NCBI GenBank assembly: GCA_018302705.1
Contig: JAGVZI010000006.1
Coordinates: forward strand, 1-44,263
Length of the DNA stretch: 44,263 nucleotides
Direction: 5' to 3'
DNA from: Candidatus Woesearchaeota archaeon
Lineage (GTDB): Archaea > Nanobdellota > Nanobdellia > SCGC-AAA011-G17 > ARS1403
The translations under genes and the position numbers were made by a program. Under the pieces are notes generated by a model that saw nothing but the letters and a program-made list of their open reading frames with translations, was not told the origin of the DNA and searched no databases. Of the stretch, positions 10,490-17,254 are shown in pieces (position 1 is the stretch's first letter; each line of letters begins with the position of its first letter).

Positions 10490-10524
10490 CAACCTTTTTA
10501 AATTATAAATAGTTTGTGATTAGA

Positions 10525-12993
10525 ATGAAAGAATTTAGAGACATTGAATTAAAATGGCAGAAGAAGTGGGAGAAAGATAAAATTTTTGAGGCTAAAGATA
10601 AGGGAAAGAAGTGCTATATACTTGAGATGTTTCCGTATCCCTCGGGGTTTGGACTGCATTTAGGGCATACCTTCAATTATTCTATCGGGGATGCTTGCGC
10701 GAGATTTAAACGAGCTAAAGGATTTAATGTTTTTTATCCAATGGGATATGATGCTTTTGGTCTGCCTGCTGAAAATGCTGCGATAAAAGAAAAAATTCAT
10801 CCTAAAAAATATACTGAGCAGAGCATAAAAAATTTTATTTTCCAGCAGAAAAGACTCGGGCTTAGCTATGACTGGAATAGACTGATTAAAACCTGCGATC
10901 CTTCTTATTATAAATGGAATCAGTGGCTGTTCCTGAAATTTTTGGAGAAAAACCTTGCATATAGAGCAAAGGCTCCTGTTAACTGGTGCGATAATTGCGG
11001 CACTGTTCTTGCTAATGAACAAGTTGAAGACGGGGAATGCTGGAGATGCCACAATAAAGTTAGTGTTAAACAGTTAGAGCAATGGTTCTTGAGAATTACC
11101 AAATATGCCGACGAGCTCCTTAAAGACGTTAATAAATTAAATTGGGATGAGAGGATAAAAATTATGCAGAGGAATTGGATTGGAAGAAGCGAAGGGGTTG
11201 AGATTGATTTCAAATTAAAAAACAGCGACGAGAAATTAAAGGTTTTTACGACCAGACCGGATACCTTATGGGGCGTTACTTTTGTGGTAATGGCTCCTGA
11301 AAACCCAAAAGTAGCTGAGCTTGTTAAAGGAACTAAATATGAAAAGGAACTAAAGTATTTTATTGACAAGGTTGTTATTGAGGAGAAATATGAGCGGGCT
11401 GCGGAGGAAAAAGAAAAAGAGGGTTTGTTTACTGGGAGATATGCTGTGAATCCTGTTAATGGCGATGTTGTTCCCATATATATTGCAAATTTTGTTCTGC
11501 TTGAGTATGGAACGGGGGCGGTGATGGCTGTCCCTGCGCATGACCAGAGAGACTTTGAGTTTGCCAGGAAATATAAAATCCCTATTAAGGTCGTTATAAA
11601 ACCCAAAGAATATGAGCTTGACGGGGAGAAGATGATGAGGGCTTATGTTGATCCCGGGATTGTGGTAAATTCTGATAAGCTGTTTAATGGAATGAATAAT
11701 TTGGAAGCGATAAAAGAAATAATCAAGTATCTGGAAAAAAATAAAACAGGAAAGAGGGCTGTGCATTATAAATTGAGAGACTGGCTAATTTCAAGACAGA
11801 GATACTGGGGAACCCCCATTCCAATTGTTTATTGCGATAAATGCGGGATTGTTCCTGCTGATATTCCTGTTCTACTTCCTGAGGATGCTGAGTTCTCTGG
11901 CAAGGGAAACCCCCTGGCTAAAAACGAGAAATTTGTCCATGTTAAATGCCCTGAATGCGATGGAAATGCGAAAAGAGAGACGGACACTATGGATACTTTC
12001 TTTGATTCGAGCTGGTATTTTTTGAGATACTGCGACAATAAAAATGAGAAGAAAATTTTTGATGCCAGGAAAATTGAAAAATGGATGCCGGTTGACCAAT
12101 ACATTGGGGGGGCTGAGCATGCTGTCCTTCATTTACTTTATGCAAGATTCTTTGTAAAAGCGATGAGAGACATGGGGATGCTGAAAATCGACGAGCCCTT
12201 CACCAGTCTATTTAATCAAGGGATGATAAATAAAAATGGAGCTAGGATGAGCAAATCTAAAGGGAATATCGTTGACCCGATGGAAACAATCGAAAAATAC
12301 GGCGCCGATACTCTGAGGACCTACCTCTTGTTCATGGGCGATCCTGGAAAGACGAGAGAATGGGATGATGAGGGCATTGAGGGCGTTTACAGATTCTTGA
12401 AGAAGATTTATTCATTTAGGAATAAAACAAAATCCAAGTCGAACATCAGGGATAAAATATTTGAAAGCAAATTAAACAAAAATATCAAGGAGATTACTTC
12501 TGATATTGAAGAGTTTAAATTTAACTTGGCTATCAGCAAATTAATGCAGCTGGTTAATTTTATTTACAACAATAAGGAAAATATTTCATTGGGAGTTTTT
12601 GAAAATAGTTTCAGGAAAATTTTAGTTGTGCTTAGCTGCTTTGCTCCGCACATTTCCGAGGAATTATACGAGGGAGGATATGTTTCTCTCTCAAAATGGC
12701 CTGAAGTTGAGGAGGATAAGATCGATAAAAACCTTGAGAAAGAGGAGGAACAAATTGAGAAATTGATCGAGGATATAAATCACGTTGCTAAACTAGTTAA
12801 AAAAGAAATCAAGAAATGCTTTGTTTATGTTTTGCCTAAGGAAGAAAAAATTTACGAGGATAATATTGAAGATATTTCCAGAAGAACTGGCTTTGAAATG
12901 AAAATATTTTCTGTTGCTGACAAAGAAAAATATGATCCTGAAGGAAAAAGTAAAAAAACTAAGGCTGGAAAGCCTGCTTTGTATTTGGAATGA
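10525..12993 (+). CDS. leuS: Leucyl-tRNA synthetase, bacterial-type
   Basis: FPYPSGFGLHLGH, GYDAFGLPAENAAI, MSKSKGN and FMGDPGKTREWDDEGIEG; about 820 aa. Confidence 0.95.
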   Translation: MKEFRDIELKWQKKWEKDKIFEAKDKGKKCYILEMFPYPSGFGLHLGHTFNYSIGDACARFKRAKGFNVFYPMGYDAFGLPAENAAIKEKIHPKKYTEQSIKNFIFQQKRLGLSYDWNRLIKTCDPSYYKWNQWLFLKFLEKNLAYRAKAPVNWCDNCGTVLANEQVEDGECWRCHNKVSVKQLEQWFLRITKYADELLKDVNKLNWDERIKIMQRNWIGRSEGVEIDFKLKNSDEKLKVFTTRPDTLWGVTFVVMAPENPKVAELVKGTKYEKELKYFIDKVVIEEKYERAAEEKEKEGLFTGRYAVNPVNGDVVPIYIANFVLLEYGTGAVMAVPAHDQRDFEFARKYKIPIKVVIKPKEYELDGEKMMRAYVDPGIVVNSDKLFNGMNNLEAIKEIIKYLEKNKTGKRAVHYKLRDWLISRQRYWGTPIPIVYCDKCGIVPADIPVLLPEDAEFSGKGNPLAKNEKFVHVKCPECDGNAKRETDTMDTFFDSSWYFLRYCDNKNEKKIFDARKIEKWMPVDQYIGGAEHAVLHLLYARFFVKAMRDMGMLKIDEPFTSLFNQGMINKNGARMSKSKGNIVDPMETIEKYGADTLRTYLLFMGDPGKTREWDDEGIEGVYRFLKKIYSFRNKTKSKSNIRDKIFESKLNKNIKEITSDIEEFKFNLAISKLMQLVNFIYNNKENISLGVFENSFRKILVVLSCFAPHISEELYEGGYVSLSKWPEVEEDKIDKNLEKEEEQIEKLIEDINHVAKLVKKEIKKCFVYVLPKEEKIYEDNIEDISRRTGFEMKIFSVADKEKYDPEGKSKKTKAGKPALYLE

Positions 12994-14157: not shown

Positions 14158-14215
14158 TTAAAATTCATAATCCCTTTGCATAATGTTTTTAAACTTCTTT
14201 TATAATCCGTTTGCT

Positions 14216-16087
14216 ATGAAATCAAGCGAGCTTAAGAAAAAATACATTGAATTTTTCAAGAAGAAAGGGCATAAAGAAATTATTAATGCGCCCCTTGTTC
14301 CTGAGAATGATCCTACTGTCTTGTTTACAACTGCAGGGATGCATCCTCTTGTTCCTTTTTTGCTTGGAGAGAAACATCCTGCTGGAAAAAGATTAGTTAA
14401 TGTGCAGAAATGCATAAGGACTGGAGACATTGATGAAGTTGGGGATGAAGTGCATCTAACTTTTTTTGAGATGCTCGGGAATTGGAGCCTGGGAGATTAT
14501 TTCAAGGAAGGTGCTATAAAGATGAGCTATGAATTCTTAACTGAAGTTTTAGGGCTGGATAAAAACAGAATTGGAGTTAGCTGCTTTTTGGGGGACGAAG
14601 ATGCTGAAAGAGATAATACTTCTGCTAATGCTTGGGAGAAACTAGGTATTCCTAAAGAAAGAATAGTCTTCCTGGGCAAGGAGGATAACTGGTGGGGACC
14701 TGCTGGGAATACCGGACCGTGCGGGCCTGATACTGAAATATTTTACTATGCTGGAAAAAATATTCCCAAGAAATTTAATCCCAGAGATAAAAAGTGGGTT
14801 GAAATCTGGAATGATGTGTTCATGGAGTATAATAAGATAAAAGGAGGGGGGGTTGAATTATTAGAGCAGAAGAATGTTGATACTGGGATGGGTATTGAAA
14901 GGACTGTTGCTGTTTTGAACGGATTTTCTGACGTTTATGAAATTGATGTGCTGAAATCTTTGATGGAAAAAGTGAGCAAAATTGCGAGGGGTGAGGATGT
15001 TAGAAGCAAGAGGATAATTGTGGATCATCTAAGGGCTGCAGCATTTATTTTGAATGAAGGGATTGCTCCCAGCAACTTGGAAAGGGGATATGTATTAAGG
15101 CGATTAATAAGAAGAGCAATAAGGCATGGAAGATTACTGGGGATCCAGGATAGGTTCTGCAAAGAGATAGTTAAAGAGGTCTTTATCGTATATAAATGGA
15201 ATTATTTTTTTAGAGAGCAATTTATTTTAGATGAGGTCGGGAAAGAGGAAGAGAAATTTGCGAGCACTTTAGAGCAAGGATTGAAAATCACAGAGAAAAT
15301 TTTTAGCAAAAAAACTCCGATTAAAAAAGAGAAATATCTAAAGTTGATGCAGTTGCCTAATCATGTGGAGATTTTGAAAGATTTGTGGAATAAAAAACAA
15401 GCTGGGAAGGATTATTCAATAAAAGAAGCGAAAATATCCAAGAAAGAAATCGACAAGGCGATTATAACTGGGAAAGAAGGATTTTTGCTGTATCAATCTT
15501 ACGGCTTTCCTGCGGAGATGATTATAGAATTAGCGATGGAAAAAAATCTGCTTTTCCATAGGGGCGGGTTTAGAATGGAGCTTGAAAAACATCAGGAATT
15601 AAGCAGAACTGCCATGGCTGGAAGATTTAAATCCGGGCTGGTTGATCATTCTGAAAAAACTACCAGGCTGCATACAGCAACCCACCTGTTATTGCAGGCC
15701 TTGAGGAATATCTTAGGGGATAAAAATATAATCCAGAAAGGAAGCAATATTACTGCAGATAGATTAAGATTTGATTTTAACTTTCCTAGAAAACTAACTG
15801 ATGATGAGATCAAGAAAATAGAGGGGGAGGTTAATGAGCAGATTATAAAAGGCTTGGAAGTAAATTGGAAGGAGGTGAAATTAATCGACGCTAAAAAAAT
15901 CGGGATCACCGGGGTGTTTGAGCACAAGTATGGAGACAGAGTGAAAGCTTACTTCATTGGAGACTACAGCAAGGAATTATGCTCCGGGCCCCATGTGACT
16001 AATACCAATGAACTGAGAAAATTTAAAATCATTAAGGAAGAAAGTAGCAGCGCGGGAGTGAGAAGAATAAAGGCTGTGCTGGAATGA
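14216..16087 (+). CDS. alaS: Alanyl-tRNA synthetase, bacterial-type, lacking C-terminal DHHA1/C-Ala region
   Basis: AlaRS aminoacylation core, HTATHLL and CSGPHV editing motifs, ends just after the SAD domain; TTTTATAAT box suggests ATG at 14216. Confidence 0.95.
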   Translation: MKSSELKKKYIEFFKKKGHKEIINAPLVPENDPTVLFTTAGMHPLVPFLLGEKHPAGKRLVNVQKCIRTGDIDEVGDEVHLTFFEMLGNWSLGDYFKEGAIKMSYEFLTEVLGLDKNRIGVSCFLGDEDAERDNTSANAWEKLGIPKERIVFLGKEDNWWGPAGNTGPCGPDTEIFYYAGKNIPKKFNPRDKKWVEIWNDVFMEYNKIKGGGVELLEQKNVDTGMGIERTVAVLNGFSDVYEIDVLKSLMEKVSKIARGEDVRSKRIIVDHLRAAAFILNEGIAPSNLERGYVLRRLIRRAIRHGRLLGIQDRFCKEIVKEVFIVYKWNYFFREQFILDEVGKEEEKFASTLEQGLKITEKIFSKKTPIKKEKYLKLMQLPNHVEILKDLWNKKQAGKDYSIKEAKISKKEIDKAIITGKEGFLLYQSYGFPAEMIIELAMEKNLLFHRGGFRMELEKHQELSRTAMAGRFKSGLVDHSEKTTRLHTATHLLLQALRNILGDKNIIQKGSNITADRLRFDFNFPRKLTDDEIKKIEGEVNEQIIKGLEVNWKEVKLIDAKKIGITGVFEHKYGDRVKAYFIGDYSKELCSGPHVTNTNELRKFKIIKEESSSAGVRRIKAVLE

Positions 16088-16090
16088 TTT

Positions 16091-16174
16091 ATGTTATTGG
16101 TAACATATTTAATGTGATTTGTAACGTAAAGTAAGTGACGAGTAACATATATTATGTGATTTATCACAGAAAGA
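16091..16174. repeat. Four tandem 21-bp units, each with a 12-bp dyad GTKA-N4-TMAC (operator-like array)
   Basis: GTTATTGGTAAC (16093), GTGATTTGTAAC (16114), GTGACGAGTAAC (16135), GTGATTTATCAC (16156); exact 21-bp phase. Confidence 0.88.
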
Positions 16175-16203
16175 TATTTATATTTGTATTTAGTATTAAT
16201 ATT

Positions 16204-16623
16204 ATGACAACTGTTGAAGAGCATGAAAAAATAATCAAAGAATTTTTGGATGATATAAATGAAAAAATAAGAGCTAATCTTCTTATAGAAAGACAGAAAA
16301 TCATCGGCTTTGCTGCATCTGAAGCTGCTGTTAATTTATTTGCTCTCTTACTTCGTAAAAAGGCTCTTGTTGAACCTGGTTTTAATGCTAATCATAGATT
16401 TTTTGCTTCTCAAAGAATTGCTGAAAAGAGATTCATGAAGCTTGATATTCCTAAGAAAGGAGAGTTAATAAACCTCTTGATTGATCAGGAGAGTTATAGG
16501 AATAAATTATGTTATGGGAAGGATAAGAAGGCTAATCTTGTTAATTTTGCGATAGAAAATTTGTTTAAAATAAAAAACCTTATTGACTCTGTTTTGGAGG
16601 AAAAAAATGACAGAACCGGCTGA
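16204..16623 (+). CDS. HEPN-like protein, partner of downstream MNT nucleotidyltransferase
   Basis: All-helical ~139-aa protein, overlaps MNT gene by 17 nt; YRNKLCYG resembles the HEPN R-x4-6-H region. Confidence 0.6.
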   Translation: MTTVEEHEKIIKEFLDDINEKIRANLLIERQKIIGFAASEAAVNLFALLLRKKALVEPGFNANHRFFASQRIAEKRFMKLDIPKKGELINLLIDQESYRNKLCYGKDKKANLVNFAIENLFKIKNLIDSVLEEKNDRTG

Positions 16624-17254
16624 TAAACTTCTTTCTTATGTGTATGATTTCTTATCGATGGTTTTTGAAGATTTAAGTATAAAGGGCAGGATTAGAAACG
16701 TTATCCTATTTGGATCAGTAGCTAAAGGAACTTATGATAAAGAAAGCGATATAGATTTATTTTTTGACGTTAAAGATAGATTGGGCATTAAAAACGTTGA
16801 AAAAAATTTGAGATCGATTTTGAACTCTTTTGAAGTGAAAGCCGAAAGGACTTGGAATTTGAAAGGAATTAGATTGCCTGTAAATTTTATTGTTGGCTCC
16901 CTAGAGGATGAAACTTGGAAAAATTTAAAGGATGAAATTATTAGTTCTGGTGTTGTACTATATGGTTCTTACAAAGAAATTCCGGATAATCTTAAATATT
17001 GTTATGTATTCTATTATTCTTTAAGGAACTTAAATAGGAAAGATAAAATGAAATTCATAAGGAGGATTTTTGGTTACAGTTTAAAGAGAGGTAAAAAAGA
17101 GTATAAACAAATGGGATTGTTGGACGAAATTAGGGGCTTTAAACTGAGCTCTAATGCCATTTTAATTTCTGGCGATGATATTTTAAAGGTAAAAAATTTA
17201 TTTAATGAGTTTAGAATAAAATATCGTGTAAAGGAAACCTGGGTAAGAGAATAA
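16607..17254 (+). CDS. MNT-type nucleotidyltransferase with C-terminal extension
   Basis: NVILFGSVAKGTYDKESDIDLFF motif; GGAGG SD in front of ATG 16607. Confidence 0.85.
   Translation: MTEPADKLLSYVYDFLSMVFEDLSIKGRIRNVILFGSVAKGTYDKESDIDLFFDVKDRLGIKNVEKNLRSILNSFEVKAERTWNLKGIRLPVNFIVGSLEDETWKNLKDEIISSGVVLYGSYKEIPDNLKYCYVFYYSLRNLNRKDKMKFIRRIFGYSLKRGKKEYKQMGLLDEIRGFKLSSNAILISGDDILKVKNLFNEFRIKYRVKETWVRE

Follow-up and report, generated by a model that had tools for sequence, protein, structure and literature searches.

Antitoxins that bind their own promoters are known, and for HEPN-MNT pairs we found one report, in which the DNA-binding part of the protein was not identified. In Shewanella, the promoter of the MNT antitoxin SO_3165 is bound by the antitoxin itself (PMC4621449), and SO_3165/SO_3166 (MntA-HepT) is the nearest autoregulated toxin-antitoxin operon to the locus described here; SO_3165 has two palindromes unlike each other, and no DNA-binding domain is predicted for it (PMC4621449). 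The present locus lies in a stretch of 44,263 nucleotides, the whole of which was analysed and is referred to as the window. It resembles SO_3165/SO_3166 in that HEPN and MNT genes share one operon, the promoter carries palindromes and an operon product is the proposed repressor. However, it differs in having uniform paired dyads 21–23 bp apart, an extra basic C-terminal domain (CTD) on the MNT protein, a reversed gene order and no HEPN histidine.

Type VII MntA-HepT systems share with this locus the HEPN and MNT folds and adjacent, overlapping genes. The first gene (16204–16623, plus strand) encodes a HEPN-fold protein of 139 aa, assigned through alignment, AF2 and Foldseek; its AF2 model is all-helical (pLDDT 91), the Foldseek similarity to HEPN structures is weak, and no family match was found in Pfam, NCBIfam or PADLOC. 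Instead of RX4-6H it reads RX4Y: Tyr takes the His position, and neither R99 nor Y104 varies across 18 homologues. The second gene (16607–17254, plus strand) encodes an MNT nucleotidyltransferase with a C-terminal extension (215 aa, GS...SDxD), in which G36, S37, D48 and D50 are invariant across 72 aligned rows. No third acid is conserved at aligned positions 92–96 in the same 72 rows, whereas three bona fide MNTs read DIQIF, DIVMF and DVHIF at the aligned strand, where we take the Asp, from general knowledge of the fold, to be the third catalytic acid. Since the HEPN protein carries RX4Y, the third acid is missing, HEPN comes first, in reverse of the type VII order, and the NCBIfam MntA_antitoxin score is 30.8 bits, below the cut-off of 60, the pair is, judged by its sequence, not a canonical type VII toxin-antitoxin and should not be filed there without tests. 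The addition of the CTD is a further difference, and three bona fide MntA-HepT operons from the same archaeal order (L178, L181 and L186), a small control, have neither the CTD nor a pair of dyads. Given the absence of these catalytic residues, a former toxin system may have become a regulator in this HEPN-MNT branch. Among defence models, PADLOC PDC-S09 and PDC-M05A (nucleotidyltransferase; PDC-M05 also with HEPN) match the nucleotidyltransferase part weakly, aligning over only about 50 residues and leaving HEPN unmatched, and an antiviral role is unproven even for PDC-M05 (PMC12988326).

The promoter of the operon had been described in a first-pass annotation as carrying four operator-like dyads in exact 21-bp steps, and this was confirmed. 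The dyads, to which no strand is assigned, are GTTATTGGTAAC (16093–16104), GTGATTTGTAAC (16114–16125), GTGACGAGTAAC (16135–16146) and GTGATTTATCAC (16156–16167), together spanning 16093–16167. The dyad symmetry claimed for their consensus, GTKA-N4-TMAC, was borne out and reaches further, to the 16 bp ATGTKA-N4-TMACAT, with dyad 1 lying inside a perfect 16-bp dyad, ATGTTATTGGTAACAT (16091–16106). The placement given for the array between alaS and the HEPN gene was also correct: it begins 6 bp past the alaS stop, dyad 4 adjoins a BRE/TATA-like element agaaagatatttatatttg (16168–16186, plus strand) containing the TATA-like TTTATATT (16177–16184), and the HEPN ATG is at 16204. The gap from the core of dyad 4 to TTTATATT is 9 bp. 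Two side features adjoin the array. The alanyl-tRNA synthetase (14183–16087) is only 634 aa long with the SAD domain at its end, the usual C-terminal domain apparently missing, and an 86-aa open frame on the minus strand (15964–16224) reads the seven-residue repeat YVTNHIK over the array; this frame is a by-product of the 21-bp period and not a gene candidate.

When the genome was scanned for such arrays, as the annotation had proposed, two copies of GTKA-N4-TMAC separated by 9 bp were found at the array only in 851 kb (three overlapping matches; reversed control, 0), and none of 100 window shuffles equalled the real count. The array stretch is also the window maximum in self-match at lags of 21 and 42 (70, against a mean of 31.5 and sd of 6.0). 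Lone GTKA-N4-TMAC sites are not enriched genome-wide, being if anything rarer than those of a control pattern (26 vs 40), therefore no wider regulon is indicated, a regulon-wide motif was dropped as a reading, and the array stands as a local, dedicated feature.

Of 61 relatives, 12 have a HEPN homologue, as do 57 of 380 genomes sampled from the phylum, and 80 MNT loci were taken from the named genome collection, most of the foreign promoters being analysed through alignments. Looking upstream of these homologous operons, a check the annotation had also called for, showed that the array is conserved in relatives and is not a scattered satellite. The same operator, which we call class A, occurs in 16 operons forming one starred clade of the MNT tree, in records assigned to Nano-, Pace-, Woese-, Aenigm-, Micr- and Undinarchaeota (Undinarchaeales), with some named 'archaeon' only. 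In the 15 operons closest to the window's MNT (L052–L066) the TATA is preceded by approximately TATGTTAYNNRTAACATA in two to four copies, while the sequence farther upstream is unrelated between operons. The constant element in this set is the TATA-adjacent pair, at a step of 21 bp (22 in L058 and L064–L066), and the aligned positions of dyad 4, of dyad 3 (the distal member of this pair) and of the TATA-like element are conserved. Operons with a second pair separate the two by 21 to 30 bp. Just one relative examined (L063) has the exact 21-21-21 spacing; the others have 21-22-21, 21-30-21 or 22-22-22, or the two TATA-proximal dyads alone. In these alignments the conserved unit is thus a pair of dyads 21–22 bp apart (21–23 over all classes), located 5' of the TATA in class A, and the window's four copies are two such units. 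The earlier proposal of phased operators for a dimeric regulator is therefore well supported, but a run of four sites spaced exactly 21 bp apart is not required.

In HEPN-MNT operons farther from the window's, the palindromes differ in sequence but keep this geometry, the pair step being 21–23 bp in every class. Their consensus patterns, drawn up by inspecting the very promoters analysed, are ATTACAAWTGTAAT (class B), TATGTTACTNAGTAACATA (C), GTTTCAAATGAAAC (D), TAAGACAAATGTCTTA (E), GGAACTTTTATTCC (F) and GGTATAWAWTATACC (G); classes B, D, E and G commonly have one pair on either side of the TATA. Changes between classes are symmetrical, e.g., GTTACA..TGTAAC against GTTTCA..TGAAAC, as expected where a dimer reads the sites. 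A significant tandem pair at 20–24 bp was detected in 58 of 80 operons against 1 of 22 control promoters, and the paired-dyad score separated HEPN-MNT promoters from controls (p=1e-11), the orthologues not being independent and the 22 controls all coming from the window, i.e., one genome. One promoter (L079, 960–1120) combines class-C sites at the TATA with a class-B pair farther upstream.

Conserved dyads thus lie at the operon's own promoter, as in an autoregulated operon with promoter-proximal operators, and we consider it probable that the array serves the HEPN-MNT operon as an autoregulatory operator. An MNT dimer, alone or with HEPN, would bind each dyad through the basic CTD; a pair of dyads, spaced by two helical turns, would place its dimers on one face of the helix, where, over or beside the BRE/TATA, they would block TBP/TFB and repress the operon. 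Contact between CTD and DNA, cooperative binding, repression and an effect of HEPN or nucleotide on binding are what we infer here. The comparative observations behind this reading comprise the dyads, their pairing and conservation, their co-diversification with the operon and the promoter dyads of genes that have only the CTD in common.

The MNT CTD (16973–17251, plus strand; approximately 90 aa, net charge +12) is put forward as the operator-binding domain on the grounds of charge, divergence and the genes that carry it alone. Net charge averages +10.9 in the CTD, against −1.8 in the nucleotidyltransferase part and roughly +1 in HEPN. The CTD is the part of MNT diverging most between operator classes, with a ratio of within- to between-class identity of 1.52 against 1.19 for the nucleotidyltransferase part. 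The annotation had seen no obvious HTH in HEPN or MNT, and neither has one; where it had left the binder unnamed, the evidence now points to MNT by way of this domain. The CTD is predicted to be a compact alpha/beta domain (whole MNT model, mean pLDDT 90) whose elements run beta, helix, two hairpins flanking a short helix, helix, beta. Searches of the CTD against Pfam and PDB sequences gave no significant match and no known DNA-binding domain, and Foldseek with the whole MNT was dominated by the nucleotidyltransferase half and did not place the CTD. PaaX_M/Cas2-like PF20803 was reached below the gathering score by 2 of 59 CTDs (best E 0.007); a LAGLIDADG-like or Cas2-like fold, prompted by the predicted order, was supported by no test. 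The open-access literature searched holds no description of the CTD or the operators.

Binding by HEPN, or by a composite HEPN-MNT surface in place of the CTD itself, is an unlikely alternative that gains some credit from HEPN being the first gene in the operons examined and from its divergence, which also tracks operator class. On a small common set, however, the within- to between-class ratio is higher for the CTD (2.27) than for HEPN (1.84) or the MNT N-terminal domain (1.68), and HEPN is near neutral where the CTD carries about +11. Because class tracks HEPN and both MNT parts jointly, the tree by itself does not single out the CTD. What counts further against HEPN is that CTD genes lacking both HEPN and nucleotidyltransferase also have promoter dyads, and the CTD of MNT is the best candidate for operator binding that these comparisons offer.

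Searching 190 genomes of the class with a CTD profile located the domain in 85, as solo proteins of approximately 90–110 aa, in tandem and fused to other parts. Promoters of the solo and tandem genes scored higher than controls in the paired-dyad statistic (p=0.0015), 4 of 19 being individually significant; one (L160) has GTTACGAACGTAAC twice, 22 bp apart, and that of the tandem-CTD gene L137 has the dyad GTTAATGTAGTTAAC. In a family of approximately 163-aa proteins with the CTD at the end (f28: L134, L135 and L143–L159; one per genome), in which no nucleotidyltransferase was detected, 17 of 19 genomes retain a GTTTA-N3-TAAAC dyad immediately ahead of the ATG amid diverging flanks, and nine also have one just upstream of the TATA. 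Shuffle tests of the f28 palindrome were significant in 0 of 8 cases, the test being weak on AT-rich sequence, and alignment across species was therefore used instead. Four of the CTD genes, L137 (G224:C12), L138 (G386:C1), L139 and L132, consist of one or two CTD copies with nothing else recognisable and have palindromes in their own promoters. The window's own genome holds a further nucleotidyltransferase-CTD gene of 186 aa (L133, G000:C18:57750-57968), which is preceded by apparent coding sequence, with no array directly before it.

We lean slightly towards regarding the CTD as the first representative of a hitherto undescribed family of sequence-specific DNA-binding domains in DPANN archaea, occurring solo, in tandem and fused to nucleotidyltransferases, in which each gene would read a paired operator that had co-evolved with it, and paralogous HEPN-MNT operons within a cell would thereby avoid cross-regulation. 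If the CTD binds DNA, it would be a new domain among the poorly known DPANN regulators, and a tractable domain of approximately 90 residues with seven main operator types and matching protein clades makes specificity and co-evolution directly testable.

The relation of operator class to the operon was followed on an MNT tree of 72 rows, built with a short search and with 15 of the 72 labels set by eye, on which the classes change 11 times (minimum 8) compared with a mean of 45.6 for shuffled labels, none of 200 shuffles being as low. The number of changes is nine without two unassigned rows and seven with automatic labels only. Like class A, classes E and F form one starred clade each, and G forms one clade at 93. 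Single genomes combine classes: the window's own genome has class A in the window and class D at L016 (C32), ETNP3_MAG_31 has A and G, nzgw46 has A and D, and C20_maxbin.123 has A and B. Among the operons compared, operator type follows the operon and not the host, and the family of operators changes in step with it. As operator type tracks the MNT tree and genomes hold mixed classes, the array's binder is most likely encoded within the HEPN-MNT operon.

This bears on a second alternative, that an unlinked host regulator, e.g., a general DPANN repressor, occupies the array. Such a protein would account for dyads resembling ordinary transcription-factor operators next to an operon whose products both lack an HTH. 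It is nevertheless improbable, more so than binding by HEPN: operator type follows operon phylogeny across phyla and varies between operons of one genome, the window's genome has one array only, and every operon subtype would need to be accompanied by a separate regulator matched to it, yet among the loci inspected no conserved gene besides HEPN and MNT stood out. A neutral tandem satellite or alaS 3' element unrelated to the HEPN-MNT promoter, as a 21-bp direct repeat starting so close to the alaS stop might suggest, is hardly credible and was rejected, as the array is single-copy in the genome, is conserved relative to the TATA and HEPN at loci whose upstream sequence is unrelated, and keeps its dyad symmetry through the symmetrical changes between classes.

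Autoregulation through MNT is also consistent with a scan in which no locus was chosen beforehand. The class-A pair GTKAYNNRTMAC-N9-GTKAYNNRTMAC is present in 8 of 380 genomes, against 4 matches for the reversed control pattern, and no obvious target gene was seen for the pair in G390:C20. The pair in G104:C23 lies approximately 54 bp 5' of an HTH and nucleotidyltransferase gene (L213, around 1501–2153), in which no CTD was recognised by eye; given the four control matches, the G104 and G390 pairs may be chance, or the former may reflect a swapped DNA-binding domain. In the other six genomes (G000, G148, G235, G257, G384 and G387) the pair is directly upstream of a HEPN gene. A same-genus genome has a class-E HEPN-MNT operon (L020, G001:C24) directly 3' of leuS, and leuS in the window (10516–12993) also lies slightly upstream of the array.
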